A stretch of DNA of 64,000 bases, taken from NCBI RefSeq assembly GCF_000744735.1, contig NZ_JQMM01000001.1, forward strand, positions 1,550,001 through 1,614,000, read 5' to 3'. The stretch is from Porticoccus hydrocarbonoclasticus MCTG13d (GTDB lineage: Bacteria > Pseudomonadota > Gammaproteobacteria > Pseudomonadales > Porticoccaceae). Made by a program: the position numbers and the translations under genes. Under the pieces are notes generated by a model that did no database searches, was not told the DNA's origin, and saw nothing but the letters and a program-made list of their open reading frames with translations. This document shows, piece after piece, positions 12,029-34,125 of the stretch. Numbering within the stretch: position 1 is the first letter of the stretch; every line of letters starts with the position of its first letter.

Positions 12029-12235
12029 TACCCTTTTACACTGATACTGTCGGTCGACTGCCAGGTGGGTCAAAAACTACTCAACATGGTCTGCCGACAG
12101 CATCTCCGGATGTGTCTTGCCATGAAAAAACATATAACATTCAATCCAGTGAAGGTACGATTGAACAGCGCGGCGACTGTAGCGCCCGACCAGCATCTAC
12201 TCGTTAATCGACTCAGGGAACGGTGACACAGCCAT
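12029..12235 (-). pseudogene. intI: integron integrase (intI) N-terminal remnant
   Basis: Read on the minus strand from ATG at 12235-12233 this gives MAVSPFPESINE, a TAG stop, MLVGRYSRRAVQSYLHWIE, CYMFFHGKTHPEMLSADHVE, a second TAG, then FLTHLAVDRQ. This is the hallmark N-terminus of integron integrases (the Y-S-x-R-T-x-x-x-Y-x-x-W-I segment, then R-F-I-x-F-H-x-K-x-H-P, then V-E-x-F-L-T-x-L-A). Both amber codons sit where glutamine (CAG) would be plausible. Homology fades after about 12045 and the catalytic two-thirds is absent. It is dead, but it faces away from the cassette ORFs, the standard arrangement of a chromosomal integron. Confidence 0.85.
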
Positions 12236-12471: not shown

Positions 12472-12931
12472 GTCTATGATCGATCACGATAAATGCCGGG
12501 CCTTGGTCAAGCAGTTCTACGCCACGGTCAACGAATTGGAGGCCATGTTCCCAGGTAGGCACTTCACCCCGGATGGCCATATGGTTGGCAGTTTAGGTGA
12601 ATGCCTTGTGGCTGATGCATACAATCTCGATCTCAAGACAGCGTCCAACAAAGGCTATGACGCTATCACCCAATGCGGCTTGGAAGTTGAGATCAAGGCT
12701 ACGCAATCTAACTCTGTTGCATTCCGGAGTCAGCCGCAGCATACGATTATCATCAAGCTCATGCCTGACGGTACATTCGAGGAAATTTACAACGGGCCAG
12801 GAGTCCTTGTTTGGGAACAGTTCAAAGGGAAGCGGCTACCGAGTAATGGCCAGTTTCAAATTTCTCTCAACAAACTCCGGCAATTAAACCAAAGTGTGGC
12901 TCAGGCAGACCGTGTACCTAGAGCCATTTAA
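12470..12931 (+). CDS. gene cassette protein, DUF6998-like, PD-(D/E)XK-type motif
   Basis: A 153-residue protein of the kind repeatedly found in integron cassettes. The stretch HMVGSLGECLVADAYNL, then KGYDAI, then LEVEIKAT gives a Glu, Asp and E-x-K order that resembles a PD-(D/E)XK nuclease core, so a DNA-acting function is possible but unproven. The ATG lies inside the presumed integron core site (12465-12471) and there is no room for a ribosome binding site within the cassette, so translation would depend on upstream DNA. The TAA stop lies inside the attC site. Single-gene cassette, function unknown. Confidence 0.8.
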   Translation: MSMIDHDKCRALVKQFYATVNELEAMFPGRHFTPDGHMVGSLGECLVADAYNLDLKTASNKGYDAITQCGLEVEIKATQSNSVAFRSQPQHTIIIKLMPDGTFEEIYNGPGVLVWEQFKGKRLPSNGQFQISLNKLRQLNQSVAQADRVPRAI

Positions 12932-12999
12932 CAAGGCGCATCAGTACGTGGCCTCCGGCCACCGGACGGCTTCAGCCGCCGCTGTACTTGGCGTTAGGA
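12926..12999 (+). other. integron attC site 1
   Basis: R'' box ATTTAAC (12926-12932, perfect RYYYAAC) and R' core GTTAGGA (12993-12999) enclose an imperfect inverted repeat: AACAAGGCG with GGCGTT outside, CAGTAC with GTAC inside, and a GC-rich centre containing two small palindromes. Length (74 bp), layout and its position directly on the stop codon of the cassette gene all fit a bona fide attC. The next cassette would begin at T12994. Confidence 0.85.
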
Positions 13000-13748: not shown

Positions 13749-13975
13749 TTGGCACAGTCCAAAAATGAAAAAGGCCTGCGATTGGCTGCAGGCCTTTAAA
13801 ATCGTGGTGCCCAGAGGCGGAATCGAACCACCGACACGAGGATTTTCAATTTGATTGATAGTTTAAATTAACCATTAAAAATCAGTTATTTACGGCGTAT
13901 TGTCTTTTATTGGATGTTTCTCTTTGTGCTTCGTTATGCTTTGACATGCGCTCAGTTTAGGAGCTGACATTTTTA
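13749..13975. repeat. partial tRNA-Phe attachment copy A with flanks
   Basis: 13749-13804 matches the DNA next to the intact tRNA-Phe (integrase 3' end plus terminator hairpin). 13805-13850 is an exact copy of the last 46 nt of the tRNA-Phe gene, from the anticodon loop to CCA, identical to 22972-23017. The following 125 bp (to about 13975) is about 80 percent identical to 15316-15440. It is the left end of an element integrated at tRNA-Phe. The rest of the 13651-14063 gap shows no gene. Confidence 0.85.
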
Positions 13976-14063
13976 TAATATAGCCAAAGTGATGTGTTAA
14001 TCTTTAATCTGTAGTTATGGGTTAGTTAACATTCATTGATTAATAGAACTAAGGAACAGTGTC

Positions 14064-14399
14064 ATGGCTAAAGGTAAATTTGAGATTTATAAGGATAAAG
14101 CTGGTGAGTTTCGTTTTCGTCTTAAAGCCTCTAATGGTGAAAATATTGGTGCTTCAGAAGGTTATAAGGCCAAGTCTGGGGCTGAAAATGGAATTGAGTC
14201 AGTCAGGAAGAACTCGAGTACTAAAGAAAGTTATGATGTCTTTGAAGGTAATAACGGAAAATGGTATTTCAATCTAAAGGCTGCTAATCACCAGGTCATC
14301 CTTAGTAGTCAAGGTTACTCTTCGAAACAGGGGGCTGAAGGCGGCTGTGATTCTGTTGCTAGGAACGCTCCGGATGCTACTGTTGACGACCAAACATAA
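14064..14399 (+). CDS. YegP-family (DUF1508) protein, two repeats
   Basis: A 111-residue protein made of two DUF1508/YegP repeats. Repeat 1 begins GKFEIYKDKAGEFRFRLKAS and ends with the NGIESVRKN helix. Repeat 2 begins YDVFEGNNGKWYFNLKAAN and ends with GCDSVARNAP. Such proteins are small, soluble and common on mobile DNA; their role is unclear. The start is supported by AAGGAA 9 bp upstream, and a good terminator follows at 14422. It is the only gene between attachment copy A and the degenerate copy at 14453. Confidence 0.9.
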   Translation: MAKGKFEIYKDKAGEFRFRLKASNGENIGASEGYKAKSGAENGIESVRKNSSTKESYDVFEGNNGKWYFNLKAANHQVILSSQGYSSKQGAEGGCDSVARNAPDATVDDQT

Positions 14400-14421
14400 C
14401 TTTAGTTGGATACCTACGCTC

Positions 14422-14450
14422 AAGACCCTGTATTGCAGGGTCTTTTTATT
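14422..14450 (+). terminator. intrinsic terminator after the YegP-like gene
   Basis: Perfect 9-bp stem AAGACCCTG / CAGGGTCTT with loop TATTG, followed by TTTATT. It lies 22 bp after the stop codon. Confidence 0.85.
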
Positions 14451-14452
14451 TA

Positions 14453-14483
14453 AGGCTTTTAAAAAGTAGTGCCTAGAGGCAGT
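14453..14483. repeat. degenerate tRNA-Phe attachment copy C
   Basis: The run aggcttttaaaaagtagtgc followed by ctagaggcagt aligns with 22957-22988 (terminator arm, spacer and acceptor/T-arm end of tRNA-Phe) with only a few differences. It lies between the YegP-like gene and the SOUL gene, so each small cargo gene appears to be separated by a tRNA-Phe end. It is shorter and more worn than copies A and B. Confidence 0.55.
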
Positions 14484-14504
14484 TAGCTTAGGTTGAGGTC
14501 TAGA

Positions 14505-15158
14505 ATGGCTGGGTCTAAAAAGGAAATCTCAAGAATGCTGCGGATAGCCCGGATTAGTTGGGTCACCATTACTATGTCGCTATTGGCGGGAAATGCTATG
14601 GCCGTTGAGGAAGCGAAATACAACGTACTTCGTGAAGAAGAGGAGTTCGAACTTCGGGAGTACGAGTCCCATATTCGCGCTGAGACCACGGTAGATGGAA
14701 AGTTTGAAGATGCTGGTAACGAAGCATTCGGCCGCCTGTTTAAGTACATTTCCGGCAACAACAAACAGCAAAATGAAGTGGCGATGACATCGCCTGTTGG
14801 ACAAGAGCCATTGAATCAGAAGATTGAGATGACTTCGCCTGTAGGCCAGCAGAAACAGGATGGAAAATGGGTTGTCAGCTTCATGATGCCAGCGTCATTT
14901 ACGCTAGAAACAACTCCTGAGCCAAAGGATCCAAACGTGTCTATTCGCGAGGTTCAGGTACGTCTCATTGCTGCGGTACGTTATTCGGGCTTTTGGAGCG
15001 AAAAAAATTACCGTCGCAACTTGATAAAATTACAGGATTGGATAGCGAGCAATCGCTTGACTCCGGTAGGCGAACCCATTTGGGCACGGTACAACCCACC
15101 GTTCACTCCTTGGTTTCTTCGTCGCAATGAAATTCTAGTCCCGGTTGCTTCTCCATAA
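14505..15158 (+). CDS. SOUL-family haem-binding protein, secreted
   Basis: A protein of about 217 residues with the SOUL signature: YNVLREEEEFELREYESHIRAET near the N-terminus and twin EVAMTSPVGQ / KIEMTSPVGQ motifs, then the FMMPASFTLETTPEPKDPNV strand. A hydrophobic stretch (ISWVTITMSLLAGNAMA) looks like a Sec signal, so it is probably periplasmic. SOUL proteins bind haem or related tetrapyrroles. ATG 14505 follows GAGG. ATG 14535 (MLRIARISW) follows AAGGA and is an equally good start that gives a cleaner signal peptide. It lies between tRNA-Phe copies C and B. Confidence 0.88.
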   Translation: MAGSKKEISRMLRIARISWVTITMSLLAGNAMAVEEAKYNVLREEEEFELREYESHIRAETTVDGKFEDAGNEAFGRLFKYISGNNKQQNEVAMTSPVGQEPLNQKIEMTSPVGQQKQDGKWVVSFMMPASFTLETTPEPKDPNVSIREVQVRLIAAVRYSGFWSEKNYRRNLIKLQDWIASNRLTPVGEPIWARYNPPFTPWFLRRNEILVPVASP

Positions 15159-15208
15159 TCTGGCTAATGAGCATGGTGCAGTTAACGCCCAACAAGTCGT
15201 TGCAGGGC

Positions 15209-15440
15209 ACAATTTTGGCACAGTCCGAAAATGAAAAAGGCCTGCGATTGGCTGCAGGCCTTTAAATTCGTGGTGCCCAGAGGCGGAATCGAACAGCCGA
15301 CCGAGGATTTTCAATTTGATTGGAAGTTTAAATTAACCATTATTAATCAGTCGGTTACGGCGCATTGCCTTTTTTTGAATGTTTGTGGTTGTACTTCATT
15401 ATGCTTTGACATGCTCTCAGTTTAGGCATGGTCATCTCTT
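15209..15440. repeat. partial tRNA-Phe attachment copy B with flanks
   Basis: 15209-15270 repeats the extreme 3' end of the integrase gene (gcacaattttggcacagtc as at 22910) and the terminator hairpin. 15271-15315 is a slightly mutated copy of the tRNA-Phe 3' half (one deletion and a few substitutions in the T-arm). 15316-15440 is about 80 percent identical to 13851-13975. It marks the left end of the element that now ends at the intact tRNA-Phe. Confidence 0.85.
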
Positions 15441-15755
15441 TTTCAGGAGCCACAGGCTTTATAACATCGTTTGCATCATGCTAACCCATTGATTTATATA
15501 CCTGATAGATTATATTCAATGGGCCAAAGGATTTGTCTTTCAACACGGGAGGTGGCTTGTTTTATCCTCAACGGAAACCCCATAAAAACACACCAAACCC
15601 TTGTGGCTAAAAGCTTACAGCCAAGTCGCGGTATTCAATGTTTCTGTGTTATAAGGCCAAAGTGTTATAAAGCCATGGGCTTTTGAGTTTACTGTTAAGC
15701 GCAATCAGTACCCGCAAACAACTAAAGTAGGTTTACACTTAAAAGAAAGAGATAT
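15441..15755. other. gap before the restriction-modification gene, possible cassette edge
   Basis: About 315 bp without a convincing gene. GTTAAGC at 15694-15700 is a perfect GTTRRRY integron core and could be the left edge of the restriction-modification cassette, whose attC lies at 18348-18417. That would give a cassette of about 2.7 kb with a 61-bp leader. No promoter is clear. Confidence 0.35.
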
Positions 15756-18353
15756 ATGGACAATTTTGAAGTTGAATTGAATGAAGATGGTAAAATTATC
15801 GATTTTTTGGATGGGGCTCCTTTAATTCCTGGACCCGAAGAATTCGTAAGGCAAAAGTATCTCAGAATTTTACATTTTGAATATCAATACCCAAAAAATG
15901 TCTTGGCTAAAGAAATTCCAATCTACTACGGCCACTCCGAGTTAAAAGACAAAAATGGTAATCCTGTTAGAGCGGATATAGTTGTTTATCGCTCAGCAAA
16001 AGCTAAAAAGGAAAAAAATCAAGGTGCCATTTCAATGCTTGTGGAATGCAAGGCTCCTACTCTTGAAACAGGATATAACCAACTTGTCTCCTACATCTAC
16101 AATACAAGTGCGGAAGGTGGAGTTTGGTATAACGGTGATGCGCCCCTGTATTTTAGACGACTCACGGCACCTAACAATGACCTAATAGATTGGACGGGCA
16201 TTCCACGGCCAGATGAGGCTTGGGACGCGCTAGGCCAACGAAGAAAAGAAGACCTGAAACGACCCAAAGATATAAAGGGATTGTTAAGGCAGTGCCATAA
16301 TAAGCTTCATGGTCGGGGCGTTGATGGCGACGAAGACGATTTAACCATGGACATGGTTAGAATCATATTGGCAAAAGCCATGGATGAAGAAAAATCGGGT
16401 GAGTTGTGTGAGTTTTATTGTACTCCTGAAGAGTATAGCTCAACAGTAGGGCAATCAACTGTAGCTACCCGTATACATTCTCTCTTTGGAGACGTAGTGG
16501 CGGAGAACAGGGATGTTTTTTCAGAGCATGAAAAAATATCCGTTGGGCCAAGGGCAATATGTGATGTGGTAGTTGAACTGCAGAGATATAGATTGCTCAG
16601 TGACCTTCATGAGTCTGATGACTGGGATATTATGGGTCATGCGTATGAACAATATACTTCAACATACTTAAAAAGGAAGCGTGGTCAATTTTTTACCAAT
16701 CGGTTAGTAGTGGATTTTCTCTCTGAAGTTCTAGACCCAGACTACCAAGATATTATTCTTGACCCTGCAGGCGGGTCTGGTGGATTTCTTACGGGTGCAA
16801 TGAGGCATGTAAGGAAAAAGATCTTATCTTCTAAAGGGACCAATATTTCTAAACAAAGACAGCTCGACAAGCACCGAACAAACTTGTTTATGGTTGAAAT
16901 AAGCAAACGCTTAGTAAAAATTGCAAAAACGGCGATGATTCTCAATGGGGATGGTCACACCGGCATGACCCAAGGTGATTCATTAGGTCCCATAGATTCA
17001 CTCAATGAGAGAGTTGCAGCGCGTTGCGGAATTGGCGCGCCAAAGATTATTTTAACTAATCCGCCCTTCGCTGGTGTTGGAGAGGGCCGAATTACCGACC
17101 CGGACGTCCTGGATAATTTTTCTAGCGGTATTAGGTGGTCAACTAGAAGCGGTGAATATATACCCACAGGTGAGCGAAATACTGAGGGCGTCCCGCCCGA
17201 AATGTTGTTCTTTGAGCGTTGTTTGCGCTGGGTGGCTCCGGGCGGAAGAATCGGCATCGTAATGCCTAAAAGCTTTCTGGATACTAGGACTTATTATCCA
17301 GTTAGACGCCTTCTGCTGGATGAGTACCGGCTGGTTGGCGTTGTAAATTGTCACAAGGATACCTTTCAACCACATACCGGTGTTAGAACTTGCCTTGTGA
17401 TTGTAGAGAGGCCACTTAAAGTTGAAGACTTGCCTCAGGATTATCCTGTGTTCATGGCAATCTCCAAGAAGGTTGGGCAGGACAGTGAAGGGTTCCCAAT
17501 TTTCAGAAGAGATAAAAATAACAATCTCACCGATGAAATTGACCACGATCTGAATGAAATTTTACGCGACTATCATGAATTCAAAATAGGTAAATTGAGA
17601 GAGTCCGAATATAGATTCTCAATTAGAAAGTTAGAAATAGATGAGCTTTTAAGGGTAAATCCACAAGTTTATTTGCCAAACCTGAATGAAACTATCCGTC
17701 AGATTGAATCAATAGATGGTTTAGAAGGCTGGTCAGTGACAACCATTGGTCAACTACATGCTGACATTAGAATATTTAAAGGACCAAGATTAAAAAGTGA
17801 GAATCTGATTGTAGAAGAGGCCGCTGATGGTGTTGAGCCTTACTATACGCCATCCGCTGTCCTTCAAGAAAAATCGGATAGCGCGAAGCTTCTTAATATA
17901 AATTATGCGTCTGAAAAACAACTAGCAACAATCAATGCCGTAAGAGTATTTCGCGGTGATATTGTAGTTACCCGATCAGGAACGATCGGTAGAGTTGCGT
18001 TTATCACAAAGAGATTAAATGGCGCGATTGTTTCGGATGATCTGATAAGGATTAGGATTAAGGACGAAAGCCTTAAATATTATGTTTATCAATTCTTGCA
18101 AACTGATAAGGCTCTGAATCAAATGCTTAGAAATGAGTACGGAGCCGTACAGCAGCATCTAGAGCCAAATCATGTTGCTGATATACTAATACCAGTACCC
18201 GACGATATGAAAGTTCTTGATAAGGTTGTCGATCTTACGAAAGAACAAATAAGACTAAAAGAAGAGTTGGAAGCTGGAAATAAAAACCTTGATGCTGAAA
18301 GTGCCGATCTTTTATCCAGTCTAATAGAGCTTGGCGCTGAGAAAAACGCTTAA
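15756..18353 (+). CDS. single-chain restriction-modification enzyme (nuclease, N6-adenine methylase, specificity)
   Basis: An 865-residue protein joining three activities. An N-terminal HsdR-N-like PD-(D/E)XK nuclease has Asp74 in RADIVVYRS and Glu97/Lys99 in MLVECKAP. An N6-adenine methylase has motif I DPAGGSGGF near 335 and motif IV NPPF near 434. A C-terminal specificity part has one target-recognition domain (from about 665, GWSVTTIGQLHADI) and a terminal coiled coil. No helicase motor is present, so it resembles type IIG rather than type I systems and could restrict and modify alone. Its stop codon lies in an attC site, so it is probably an integron cassette. AT-rich, unlike the chromosome. 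Confidence 0.88.
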   Translation: MDNFEVELNEDGKIIDFLDGAPLIPGPEEFVRQKYLRILHFEYQYPKNVLAKEIPIYYGHSELKDKNGNPVRADIVVYRSAKAKKEKNQGAISMLVECKAPTLETGYNQLVSYIYNTSAEGGVWYNGDAPLYFRRLTAPNNDLIDWTGIPRPDEAWDALGQRRKEDLKRPKDIKGLLRQCHNKLHGRGVDGDEDDLTMDMVRIILAKAMDEEKSGELCEFYCTPEEYSSTVGQSTVATRIHSLFGDVVAENRDVFSEHEKISVGPRAICDVVVELQRYRLLSDLHESDDWDIMGHAYEQYTSTYLKRKRGQFFTNRLVVDFLSEVLDPDYQDIILDPAGGSGGFLTGAMRHVRKKILSSKGTNISKQRQLDKHRTNLFMVEISKRLVKIAKTAMILNGDGHTGMTQGDSLGPIDSLNERVAARCGIGAPKIILTNPPFAGVGEGRITDPDVLDNFSSGIRWSTRSGEYIPTGERNTEGVPPEMLFFERCLRWVAPGGRIGIVMPKSFLDTRTYYPVRRLLLDEYRLVGVVNCHKDTFQPHTGVRTCLVIVERPLKVEDLPQDYPVFMAISKKVGQDSEGFPIFRRDKNNNLTDEIDHDLNEILRDYHEFKIGKLRESEYRFSIRKLEIDELLRVNPQVYLPNLNETIRQIESIDGLEGWSVTTIGQLHADIRIFKGPRLKSENLIVEEAADGVEPYYTPSAVLQEKSDSAKLLNINYASEKQLATINAVRVFRGDIVVTRSGTIGRVAFITKRLNGAIVSDDLIRIRIKDESLKYYVYQFLQTDKALNQMLRNEYGAVQQHLEPNHVADILIPVPDDMKVLDKVVDLTKEQIRLKEELEAGNKNLDAESADLLSSLIELGAEKNA

Positions 18354-18417
18354 CAAATGGCTGTTGCCGGACGTGCCTACGCTGCGCTCCGGCACGCCGC
18401 AAAGCCAGGCGTTATGT
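18348..18417 (+). other. integron attC site 2
   Basis: R'' box GCTTAAC (18348-18354, perfect RYYYAAC) and R' core GTTATGT (18411-18417) bound a 70-bp imperfect palindrome (GCCGGACGTGCC against GGCACGCCGC in the centre, AACAAATGGC against GCCAGGCGTT at the ends). It overlaps the stop of the restriction-modification gene, and the next ORF starts 13 bp beyond, as expected between two cassettes. Confidence 0.85.
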
Positions 18418-30560: not shown

Positions 30561-31289
30561 GTGCTGATAATCCCCGCGATTGATTTAAAAGACGGTGAAT
30601 GTGTGCGATTGCGCCAGGGTCGTATGGAGGACTCCACGGTATTTTCCGGCAGCCCGCTGGAAACCGCAGCCAGATGGGTGGATGCCGGTGCCCGGCGTTT
30701 GCATCTGGTGGATCTGAATGGCGCATTTGCCGGCGAACCGGTCAACGGCGAAGTCGTCACCGCCATTGCCAAAGCCTACCCGAACCTGCCGATCCAGATC
30801 GGTGGCGGTATTCGCAATGCTGAGACGATTGAGGCATATCTAAAGGCCGGTGTTCAGTACGTGATTATCGGCACCAAGGCCGTGAAAGAGCCGGAATTCG
30901 TGACCGACATGTGTAAACAGTTCCCCGGCCATATTATTGTCGGCCTCGATGCCAAAAATGGCCGTGTGGCTACCGACGGCTGGGCGGAAGTCACCGAAGT
31001 CCTGGCCGCCGATCTGGCCAAACGGTTCGAAGCGGACGGCGTCAGCGCCATTGTCTACACCGACATCGACCGCGACGGCATGATGCAGGGCGTTAACGTG
31101 GATGCCACCGTAGCGATGGCCCGAGCCTCATCCATTCCGGTAATTGCCTCCGGTGGCATTACCAATATGGACGATATCGTGGCACTCAATAAAGTGGCCG
31201 ATCAGGGCATCCTCGGTGCCATCACCGGCCGTGCCATCTACGAAGGCACCCTGGACGTGGCCGAAGCTCAGCGGCTCTGCGACGGCTGA
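30561..31289 (+). CDS. hisA: phosphoribosyl-formimino-AICAR-phosphate isomerase HisA
   Basis: A 242-residue TIM-barrel isomerase of histidine synthesis. The GTG start at 30561 gives the canonical [19 protein letters not shown]; the frame is open further upstream only by chance. The catalytic Asp lies in PAIDLKDG, and a second acid in [13 protein letters not shown]; the phosphate-binding loops are IQIGGGIRN and VIASGGITN. hisF, which normally follows, is not in the window: an integron cassette and murI come next. Confidence 0.96.
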
Positions 31290-31307
31290 TTGATCAAAAA
31301 ATAATCG

Positions 31308-33160
31308 TTACGACCCCTTTAATTACATGCGCGATATACAAATGTTATATTTTAAAGTGCAAATTTTAAGAAATAGAATGGTGGGGAATAATGAAAATCG
31401 AATCCAAAGATACAGATATCGAGAGTTTGCTAGTAGGATCATATTTTCATATTCCTCGATTTCAGCGCCCATACTCTTGGGATGATGAGAATTTAAATGA
31501 TTTTTGGGATGACGTCGTAGTTAATCAGTCCGATGATTACTTTATTGGATCAATGGTCGTTTATAAAAAAGATAAGCAGCAATTTGGTGTTGTCGATGGG
31601 CAGCAACGCTTAACAACCATAACTATATTGCTGTGCGTTATTAGAGATTATTTTCTGAAAGTTGGCTCTCAAGATCTTGCCGAGGGGGTACACCAGTTAA
31701 TTGAAAGAAAGGATAGAAGCAATAAAAACGAATATGTCCTTAAAACAGAAACATCATTTCCGTACTTCCAAGAACATATCCAGAAATTCAATGACGAACT
31801 AGAATTGATCATAGATATCCAGCTAGAGGAACAGAATCTGAAAAATGCACATACCAGGTTCAATAAACTTGTTGGATCAGTTGTGAGTGCGATCGATCAG
31901 GATGCATCTATCAAGCCAGAGAATAAAAACGACCTTAAGGTCGAAAGGCTTGTGAGTTTGAGGGATGCAATCCTTAACTTAAATTTAATTTTTATAACGC
32001 TTGATAATGAAGATGATGCTTACCTGATATTTGAAACTCTCAATACGAGAGGAAAGGATTTGGCATTGACCGACTTAGTAAAAAACCATTTTTCTAAACA
32101 CCTTAAGTCCAAGGGTGATGTGGACCACACGAAGCTAAAGTGGTCATCAATGCTAGAAACGATACATAACTCCTCGTCGGATATATCATCAGATAATTTC
32201 ATATACCACTTCTGGGCATCTCGATACGAAGCGGTACCGTTAAAGAAATTATTTCCAAAAATTAAGAAAGATATCACCAAGTCGAAAGCGAGGGAGTATT
32301 TGGACGCGTTGGTGGCAGACTCAAAGATCTATCGATCTATTCATGAGGATAATTTTGAATGGACAAAGAATGAATATGAAGTCTCTAGCTCACTTTACGC
32401 TCTACAGTTGTTTAAGTTGTCTCAACCAACCCCTGCTACAATGTCTTTAGTGAGATCGTACAAAAACAACATAATTAAATATAAAAAACTCCGTGATGCG
32501 CTAAGTGTCATAGAGAAGTTTCATTTTGTATTTACGGCCATTACTTCATCACGGTCATCTGGCGGGATTTCAGCCATGTACTCGTCGTTTGCAATAAAAT
32601 TGTTTAATTGCACTGATCCTCAAGCTGCATCAGACCTGATATCAGAGTTTGTTGTGAAGCTAAGGGATAAGCGCCCTTCTATTGACGAGTTCAAGGTTGC
32701 GTTTAAGGAAGTTATTTATACCAATACGAACTCGAAGCAGAAAAATCTTGTCAGGTATATATTAAAGAAGTTCTCTTTGTATTATTCGTATAAATATCCT
32801 GTCGATTTCGATGAGTTGACCATTGAGCACCTCTGTCCACAGGATAAAATCGGTCAAGATGATTGGCTGGAGTCATCAGTTGGGTGCTTGGGTAATTTAA
32901 TATTTTTGGATCAGAAGATGAATGGCGAGTTAGATACCAAGAGCTTTTCTGGCAAAAAAAGGATTCTAAAAGAGAAAGGTTATTCTTTCAGCGAGTTTAT
33001 CGCTAATTCGACCGATTGGACGACAGAACATGTTTTCGAGCATGCGGACAAAATGGCTGAAGTTGCGTACAACGAGATATGGAAAATATAACAAGGCTAG
33101 GCAAGCCGACCCGTTTTCACTGCATTTCGTTCCGTTCCAAACGGTCGGTTGCTGGCTGCG
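31308..33160 (+). mobile_element. solitary integron gene cassette after hisA
   Basis: A 1.85-kb AT-rich unit made of one ORF and a terminal attC site. The right edge is G33160/T33161 in the core GCGTTAGC. The left edge is less certain: GTTACGA at 31307-31313 has the G|TT cut point and lies 18 bp after the hisA stop, but does not fully match GTTRRRY. No integrase or second cassette is near it. Removing it would join hisA to the short spacer before murI. Confidence 0.6.
31391..33091 (+). CDS. DUF262/DUF1524 (GmrSD-like) defence protein
   Basis: A 566-residue protein with an N-terminal DUF262 domain (HIPRFQRPYSWDDENLNDF, then FGVVDGQQRLTTIT near residue 67; the D-G-Q-Q-R motif is a nucleotide-handling ParB-like signature) and a C-terminal DUF1524 His-Asn-His-type nuclease domain (TIEHLCPQDKIGQDDW near 477, then VGCLGNLIFLDQKMN). 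This is the architecture of fused GmrSD and related type IV-like enzymes that attack modified phage DNA. Its stop codon lies in an attC site. Strongly AT-rich, in contrast to the his and mur genes around it. Confidence 0.88.
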   Translation: MKIESKDTDIESLLVGSYFHIPRFQRPYSWDDENLNDFWDDVVVNQSDDYFIGSMVVYKKDKQQFGVVDGQQRLTTITILLCVIRDYFLKVGSQDLAEGVHQLIERKDRSNKNEYVLKTETSFPYFQEHIQKFNDELELIIDIQLEEQNLKNAHTRFNKLVGSVVSAIDQDASIKPENKNDLKVERLVSLRDAILNLNLIFITLDNEDDAYLIFETLNTRGKDLALTDLVKNHFSKHLKSKGDVDHTKLKWSSMLETIHNSSSDISSDNFIYHFWASRYEAVPLKKLFPKIKKDITKSKAREYLDALVADSKIYRSIHEDNFEWTKNEYEVSSSLYALQLFKLSQPTPATMSLVRSYKNNIIKYKKLRDALSVIEKFHFVFTAITSSRSSGGISAMYSSFAIKLFNCTDPQAASDLISEFVVKLRDKRPSIDEFKVAFKEVIYTNTNSKQKNLVRYILKKFSLYYSYKYPVDFDELTIEHLCPQDKIGQDDWLESSVGCLGNLIFLDQKMNGELDTKSFSGKKRILKEKGYSFSEFIANSTDWTTEHVFEHADKMAEVAYNEIWKI

Positions 33161-33166
33161 TTAGCT
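33086..33166 (+). other. integron attC site 4
   Basis: R''-like ATATAACAAGGC begins the element and GGCTGCGTTAGC ends it. Between them CAAGCCGACCCGTTT pairs imperfectly with AAACGGTCGGTTGCTGG around a 20-base centre, giving an 81-bp folded site. The stop codon of the DUF262 gene is at 33089-33091 inside it, as usual for cassettes. Confidence 0.82.
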
Positions 33167-33336
33167 GTCCGAGATACCCCTGACTTGTAGACACTGAAAA
33201 GGGGTCTGAAAAAAAGGTCGGTGTAGATCTACTCCAGGTTTTAAAACCAGAAACTCTAAAGTAATTCAATCTTGGAAAGTTGTAGTGCTGCCCCAGTTTC
33301 TTTAACGTTCAGCTTTCAGTGTCGGTATTTAACGAG

Positions 33337-34125
33337 ATGACCAATTCCAGCGCTATAGGCCTCTTTGATTCAGGCATTGGCGGGCTGTCAATTGCCCGAA
33401 AAGTCAGAGATTTGTTGCCGAGCGAAAACATCCTGTATGTTGCGGATTCACTTCATGCGCCCTACGGGGATAAAGCGGACAGCTTTCTGTTGGAACGAAT
33501 GAGCGCTGTCACAGAGTTCCTGCTTTCCCGTGGTGCCAAGGCCGTTGTCGTGGCGTGCAATACGGCTACCACGTCGGCGATTGCCAAACTCAGGTGCCAA
33601 TACCCGGTTCCGATTATCGGTGTTGAGCCGGGAATCAAACCCGCCGCACTCTGTTCCCGCACCGGTGTGATTGGTGTGTTGGCGACGCCGGGAACGCTGA
33701 AAACACATTCTTTTGTTAATTTGGCGGAGCGCTACGCAAGCGGAGTGAAAATTGAGCTCCAACCCTGCCCTGATCTGGCTGCTCAAATAGAATCATTGAG
33801 CTTTGACAGTGACAGGACGATTGCTCTGCTGAAACGTTACATTTCCCCACTTATTGAAAAAAAGGTCGATACTATTATTCTCGGCTGCACACACTACAAC
33901 CATGTTTCCCATCTGATCGCCGAGTTAGCGGGGCCCGATGTCACCATCGTCAATACGGAAACAGCGGTGGCAAATCAGGTTGTTCGCAGGCTCACGGCCG
34001 AGGGATTACTTGCTGCGGGCAACCATGTGGGACGTGATGAGTTCTGGACAAGTGGCGTCCTTGATAGTTACCGCAACCAGATTGAAAAATTGTGGGGACC
34101 GGGTGAAAACGTCTTTCAGCTTTAG
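33337..34125 (+). CDS. murI: glutamate racemase MurI
   Basis: Makes D-glutamate for peptidoglycan. Seen are IGLFDSGIGGLSIARKV at the N-terminus with the catalytic Asp-Ser, VVVACNTATTSAI with the first catalytic cysteine near residue 70, and IILGCTHYNHV with the second near 183. The ATG at 33337 gives MTNSSAIGLFDSG, the common family start; an in-frame GTG at 33319 is possible. About 245 bp separate it from the cassette ORF, of which the last 170 show no gene. Confidence 0.96.
   Translation: MTNSSAIGLFDSGIGGLSIARKVRDLLPSENILYVADSLHAPYGDKADSFLLERMSAVTEFLLSRGAKAVVVACNTATTSAIAKLRCQYPVPIIGVEPGIKPAALCSRTGVIGVLATPGTLKTHSFVNLAERYASGVKIELQPCPDLAAQIESLSFDSDRTIALLKRYISPLIEKKVDTIILGCTHYNHVSHLIAELAGPDVTIVNTETAVANQVVRRLTAEGLLAAGNHVGRDEFWTSGVLDSYRNQIEKLWGPGENVFQL

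Follow-up and report, generated by a model that had tools for sequence, protein, structure and literature searches.

Organization of the hisA–murI interval

The window analysed here is a stretch of 64,000 nt from Porticoccus hydrocarbonoclasticus MCTG13d; the genomes and loci compared with it are designated by G and L numbers, respectively. Between hisA and a murI-like gene, the window carries an intact GmrSD-family ORF within an integron gene cassette that has its own attC. The cassette is bordered on the left by the end of an attI and on the right by the end of an insertion sequence (Table 1).

Table 1. Features of the hisA–murI interval and integron-related features elsewhere in the window
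Feature	Position	Strand	Description
intI N-terminal remnant	12050–12220	−	70% over 57 aa
Type IIG-like RM gene	15756–18353		attC at 18348–18417 (score 48.9); behind attI G15694
hisA	30561–31289	+	ORF conserved in relatives; GTG start chosen by us
Native hisA 3' flank	31290–31324	+	Homology in relatives; includes G31307^TT and GACCCCTTTAATT
Truncated attI	31326–31344	+	Last 19 nt of type C attI (CATGCGCGATATACAAATG); crossover after G31344
Integron gene cassette	31345–33160	+	TTATATTT...GCG; start common to L075, L077 and L080
GmrSD-family (DUF262+DUF1524) ORF	31391–33091	+	566 aa, intact
attC	33086–33166	+	ATATAACAAGGC...GCGTTAGCT; R'' ATATAAC
Remnant of IS3-family left terminus	33168–33195	+	28 nt
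Short junction sequence	33196–33232	+	37 nt; contains AAAGGGGTC (REP-like by eye)
Native flank and Asp/Glu racemase (murI-like) gene	33233–34125	+	Homology in relatives; PF01177

The defence gene lies in a gene cassette

The attC obtained a value of 47.2 with a home-made scorer and was the one site above a threshold of 34 between hisA and murI. When the window was Markov-resampled (3 × 64 kb, one strand), the scorer returned 14 sites with at least 30, 5 with at least 34, 2 with at least 38 and none with at least 42. Plain DNA folding of the site was no better than that of shuffled sequences (z of −0.46 on one strand and −1.13 on the other). Since folding energy did not set the site apart, its assignment is based on architecture and homologues. 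The ORF is followed by an attC with R'' and R' core sites (ATATAAC and GCGTTAGCT), and R'' is complementary to the start of the same cassette, GTTATAT, as for a circularised cassette.

The scan of the genome collection for GmrSD homologues gave 10 loci. The homologous cassettes in L075 (81%), L077 (65%) and L080 (65%) begin at G^TTATATTT, and that of the window begins likewise, at G31344^TTATATTT. We delimited the cassette (Table 1) from this agreement at G31344^TT and from the R'' complementarity; its right end is plausibly G33160^TT. The cassette start is immediately preceded by an attC in L077 (score of 50.2) and, by eye, in L080, and none was scored before that of L075. A complete attC follows the stop codon in L075 (48.9) and L077 (43.5), and L080 retains only R'' and a truncated remainder. 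A distant homologue (L062, 48%), from one of the 13 matching genomes among 390, has an attC-like end by eye that falls below the scorer threshold. No attC was found after the gene in L076, L078, L079, L063 and L064 (scorer at 38 and inspection by eye) or in L081–L084 (by eye only).

Judged by its sequence, with the G^TT boundary at the 5' end, the R'' complementarity and the same boundary in homologues, the defence gene beside hisA is a genuine integron gene cassette, for which excision and integration by IntI are predicted. A cassette with its own attC had been proposed in the sequence-only reading of this DNA, and the intact ORF, the attC score and the homologous cassettes bore this out. The same reading had described no second cassette, which holds for the hisA–murI gap but not for the window, where a type IIG-like RM cassette was found (Table 1).

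The cassette encodes a GmrSD-family protein

DUF262, with its DGQQR motif, serves NTP binding or hydrolysis and the sensing of modified phage DNA, and DUF1524 is a C-terminal HNH-type domain responsible for cutting. Both domains are present in the 566-aa protein, which places it directly in the family: it matched GmrSD_N (PF03235, 1.7e-37) and GmrSD_C (PF07510, 9.6e-14) in Pfam, and Orf5 with 1140 bits in PADLOC, together with HEC-06 and, weakly, mREase_IV. The protein was aligned with those of 7 of the 10 scanned loci; L082, L083 and L084 were left out, the last two on account of stops within the given frame. In all eight aligned proteins, DGQQR (69–73), E479–H480, P483–Q484 and N502 were unchanged. 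The dN was 0.13 relative to L075 and 0.13–0.29 across five homologues; for the same five, the dS routine gave −1, which was taken as saturation. With these domains and conserved motifs, the protein most likely acts as a type IV-like, modification-dependent restriction endonuclease, in agreement with the cargo proposed beforehand; as a GmrSD enzyme, it would be predicted to cleave glucosylated or hydroxymethylated DNA.

A search for terminator-like sites from hisA to the GmrSD gene gave nothing on the + strand, so transcription from the his genes may read through into the cassette. The promoter search for the cassette gave 7 candidates versus 5.5 expected from shuffles, that is, no enrichment. 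Given the intact and conserved ORF and the possible read-through from his, the cassette is probably still functional.

The left boundary and a truncated attI

The sequence-only reading had placed the left boundary at G31307, 18 bp past hisA, and had proposed that the cassette integrated there at a secondary (non-attI) site. The hisA search gave matches in 46 of 58 genomes, own included, and four other genomes carry a hisA that is 93–96% identical (G012, G005, G010 and G015). In these four relatives, which have no GmrSD gene, the homology of the hisA flank passes G31307^TT, reaching 31324 in G005, G010 and G015 and 31320 in G012, and the sequence that follows G31307, TTACGACCCCTTTAATT, is found with few changes. 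G31307 is thus part of the native hisA flank and the cassette starts 37 nt rightwards; with the flank running to 31320–31324, the boundary is elsewhere, the outcome named beforehand as counting against the proposal.

On the right side, homology restarts at 33234 (G015) or 33238 (G005 and G012); G010 has hisA and murI on two separate contigs. The fragment was absent from all five genus relatives with a complete hisA–murI interval (G012, G005, G015, G007 and G003), positions 33161–33232 are missing from that interval in G012, G005 and G015, and no relative examined showed the predicted empty site, with 31307 joined to 33161. What the relatives have instead we take to be a two-gene FlgO-like unit in G005 and G015 (with its start in G010), a symporter in G012 and a REP-associated transposase in G015. 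These differing contents between hisA and murI indicate that the interval is a variable site.

The gap (L041, L042 and L044) differs in gene content among close relatives and contains REP-like repeats.

The 19 nt abutting the homology-defined cassette start are 19/19 identical to L117 and L119. A search of 58 genomes (own included, loose limit of E 10), with a query containing the attI core, gave some match in 51, mostly at chance level or outside the core. The 19-nt core is covered by 14 of the best 15 matches located beyond the window (E up to 0.0042), with an identity of 87–100% along the aligned part. In context, each of the 14 stands directly before GTT (in one case as AAG^TT), and the sequence beyond differs. 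A match this short could be put down to chance, but complete identity placed exactly against the cassette start renders that explanation practically negligible.

The junction also bears on whether IntI put a lone cassette at an attG-like G^TT, at 31307/31308 after hisA. Such an escape would be in keeping with the G^TT at 31307, with the single attC above 34 at the locus and with non-attI (attG) integration, which PMC12901181 documents. It is made very improbable by the cassette-free relatives, in which the sequence runs on beyond G31307 unchanged or nearly so, and by the homologous cassettes, which begin elsewhere. The relatives examined offer no empty G^TT site, and the real junction is preceded by the 3' end of an attI.

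The identity of the attI

A search with the 220-nt element retrieved 29 places in 18 of the 112 genomes of the family. In G471 (L202), a full intI reads away from the type C attI, at ~286 nt from the crossover, and scored 401.9 bits against the integron-integrase model (cut-off of 265); the hisA junction therefore matches an attI that adjoins an intact intI, over 19 nt only. Near the attI of L194 (G466) there are 130–146 aa of intI, and C-terminal remnants of intI adjoin the attI at L181 (own genome, 2.035 Mb) and L180 (G015, 22 aa). The intI match was weak at L185 (49 aa) and marginal at L178 and L190 (E 0.002–0.006), and 22 of the 29 attI copies had no intI match within ~1.5 kb. The integrase model loosely matched 14/14 control genomes as well, never above the cut-off. 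Because the controls matched in this way, intI was counted only above the cut-off or versus these IntI proteins.

An intI above the cut-off is present in 6 of 17 genus genomes, G005 and G010 among them, and the readable attI sites adjoining an intact intI in the genus are of types other than type C, so these integrases cannot be assumed to act on type C. From one full platform, one partial intI and the remnants, the recurring element is identified at the sequence level as an attI (type C), mostly without intI. The own-genome copy at 2.035 Mb has GTGCGCG where the fragment has ATGCGCG, and the donor attI locus of the hisA fragment was not found. No intI above the family cut-off was detected in the own genome; with no intact intI there, the cassette is probably fixed in place.

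The right junction carries the end of an IS3-family element

The 38 nt at 33158–33195, which comprise the attC tail and the IS left end, are 89% identical to an element in G005 whose transposase belongs to the IS3 family (NCBIfam NF033516, 337.8 bits versus a cut-off of 160). The IS3 left end follows an attC-type core at nine distinct loci, hisA locus included, a count from which four short IS-end matches in G040 were left out. The base context before it is GCGTTA at 8 of the 9 loci and GCATTA in L057. A further IS3 end is found in the own genome at 2.149 Mb, behind an attC-like sequence. The adjoining 33196–33232 has no good second copy in the own genome.

At the eight loci other than hisA (L060, L057, L058, L059, L088, L090, L092 and L110), the left end stands directly behind the attC-type core, in constant orientation.

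Inverted copies GACCCCTTT (31312–31320) and AAAGGGGTC (33198–33206) lie at the two ends of the fragment. This pair hints at REP-like sequence at both ends and proves nothing.

Other integron features of the window

The integron platform reported ~19 kb away was indeed present upstream, in a decayed state (Table 1). Its attI has the crossover at G12465 and resembles the attI adjoining an intact intI in L160, L162 and L164. A DUF6998 cassette follows. Its attC (12926–12999) scores only 35.4, with a fold z of about −2 versus shuffles, and its assignment is based on context, because resampled sequence also scores that high.

Within 15435–18417, which also takes in the type IIG-like RM gene and its attC, the window has a second attI type, with 86% identity over 264 nt to the attI adjoining intI in L163; its crossover is G15694 and no intI match was found nearby.

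At 13749–15426, two ~210-nt repeats (86–95% alike, 1465 nt apart) flank DUF1508 and SOUL genes. By eye, these repeats hold a tRNA 3'-end-like sequence, and the whole may be a small tRNA-targeted insertion. Rfam at the gathering threshold matched tRNA alone.

Dispersed promoter–leader–attI modules

The best-preserved copies of the type C element share ~258 nt up to the G^TT, and others fewer (79 nt in L142/L149). Inspected by eye, the module contains promoter-like boxes (TTGTCA-16-TATACT), a hairpin, a ribosome-binding site and a leader ORF that runs through attI. A tRNA gene lies upstream of attI in 8 of the 19 module loci scanned, several of these eight being the same place in different strains.

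Modules of ~258 bp were seen at L142–L159, L178–L206 and L047, dispersed in the genus and mostly without an adjacent intI.

When strains were compared at the same locus, homology stopped 3–4 nt past the crossover G and restarted 579–3581 nt further on, with different genes in between. This was seen in four pairs representing three loci: L047/L144, L145/L143, L142/L149 (likewise L151) and L148/L158. L047/L144 and L145/L143 are one locus, with matching right flanks, and L149 and L151 are alike throughout. With a threshold of 33, 6 of 10 loci (L142, L144, L047, L145, L143 and L150) had attC candidates between the points where homology stops and restarts, versus about one match expected by chance, as estimated from resampled sequence. 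With a threshold of 40, an attC lies within 6 kb in only 6 of 25 loci (the window, L047, L142, L150, L157 and L202), so that a cassette at every module is not established.

The single contig of G471 carries a module with intI and another without it, at 1.534 Mb; a third match ends 9 nt before the end of the query (2.145 Mb), and there is also a short partial match. This set is compatible with service in trans, without proving it. We tentatively propose, at a little short of even odds, that the genus runs a distributed integron. Scattered ~258-bp modules, each with one to few cassettes exchanged at G^TT, would all be served in trans by one intI, or by one since lost, and the hisA cassette would be a stripped or displaced product of this system. 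If so, cassette expression sites would multiply independently of the integrase, providing another route to many first-position expressed cassettes per genome, defence genes included. The open-access literature searched gave no match for multiple attI sites or for dispersed in-trans attI near tRNA, and we claim no priority beyond that search. For orphan or attI-like sites, the matching source concerns off-target activity.

Origin of the hisA fragment

The boundaries and the attI described above were read directly from the sequence; the order of events is our reconstruction from them. We consider the feature, with a probability of roughly 0.8, to be a displaced or stripped integron fragment that derives from ordinary attI capture and not from capture at a secondary site. 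The GmrSD cassette would have been captured at an ordinary attI by attI × attC recombination, which we infer because the attI::cassette junction is exact. An IS3-family element would then have inserted beside the attC, as it did behind other attC-type cores in the genus. Finally, the fragment, consisting of 19 nt of attI, the cassette, its attC and 28 nt of IS, would have come between hisA and murI, where it was found in the own genome only. It would have been relocated there by a non-integrase rearrangement or illegitimate recombination, or else a promoter–attI module would have landed between hisA and murI and later eroded on both sides. The integrase did not make the present breakpoints, since 31324–31326 and 33195–33233 are not at G^TT. 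Against a displaced fragment it can be said that just 19 nt of attI and 28 nt of IS remain and that the flanks show no identifiable mechanism of movement.

The second route, in which a module and its array once stood at hisA–murI and were eroded in situ instead of being relocated, is itself one form of the preferred explanation. That genomes carry several modules (three in the own genome, three in G012) and that strains differ in the genes behind the same module both fit such a history. None of the five relatives with a complete interval has a module here, however, and the left breakpoint coincides exactly with the edge of the native flank. We therefore regard erosion in situ as possible but rather doubtful.

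IntI might, alternatively, have carried part of attI along with the cassette into the hisA–murI gap, generating a delta-attI product. According to PMC12901181, the delta-attI sites known in class 1 and 2 integrons keep 8–12 nt left of the crossover (238 in one case) and those tested are functional; the 19 nt kept here resemble such a short left segment. In the known cases, however, the truncated attI takes the place of the 3' attC, whereas the one at hisA stands upstream and leaves an intact attC in place. Moreover, the left junction A31325/C31326 has no G^TT and an IS end stands on the right. A delta-attI product is thus an unlikely source of the locus.

Capture at an ordinary attI followed by displacement or stripping remains our reading, so that what looked like a cassette escaping to a random site becomes evidence of attI capture of the ordinary kind, with subsequent rearrangement. 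The lesson is that empty sites and homologues should be compared before a cassette escape is claimed.

Comparison with known systems

IS1111/IS110 elements prefer attC, and the element found here is likewise an insertion sequence with attC preference. It differs from them in having an IS3-family transposase and in sitting just past the R' core. The open-access literature searched contained nothing on insertion sequences said to "target attC".

Like the GmrSD type IV enzymes (PMC4619093; PADLOC Orf5/HEC-06), the cassette protein combines DUF262 and DUF1524 in one chain, with DGQQR and HNH-type residues. Its substrate and activity are predicted from homology, and the single solved chain that it matched, 9jfl_B, is distant (E 5.7e-14).

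As with attG non-classical sites, the cassette at hisA lies outside an intI–attI platform, but its junction holds attI sequence and the predicted empty site was refuted. With the class 1 and 2 delta-attI sites characterised in PMC12901181, it shares a truncated attI core with a short left segment beside G^TTRRRY; in contrast to these, the truncated attI at hisA is chromosomal and stands in front of a cassette whose attC is normal.

Sedentary chromosomal integrons and CALIN arrays are also alike in organization. Those of Xanthomonas, in the sections of PMC12444791 that cover them, have attC cassettes, lost or decayed intI and recurring chromosomal positions away from intI, as observed here. A CALIN is set there at two or more attC without intI, whereas the hisA–murI interval has one attC. 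Arrays elsewhere in the genus keep a promoter–leader–attI module without intI, a trait absent from that part of the Xanthomonas description. As a variant the hisA locus is modest, being an orphan cassette with a truncated attI, and the network of integrase-less attI modules is the more interesting of the two.
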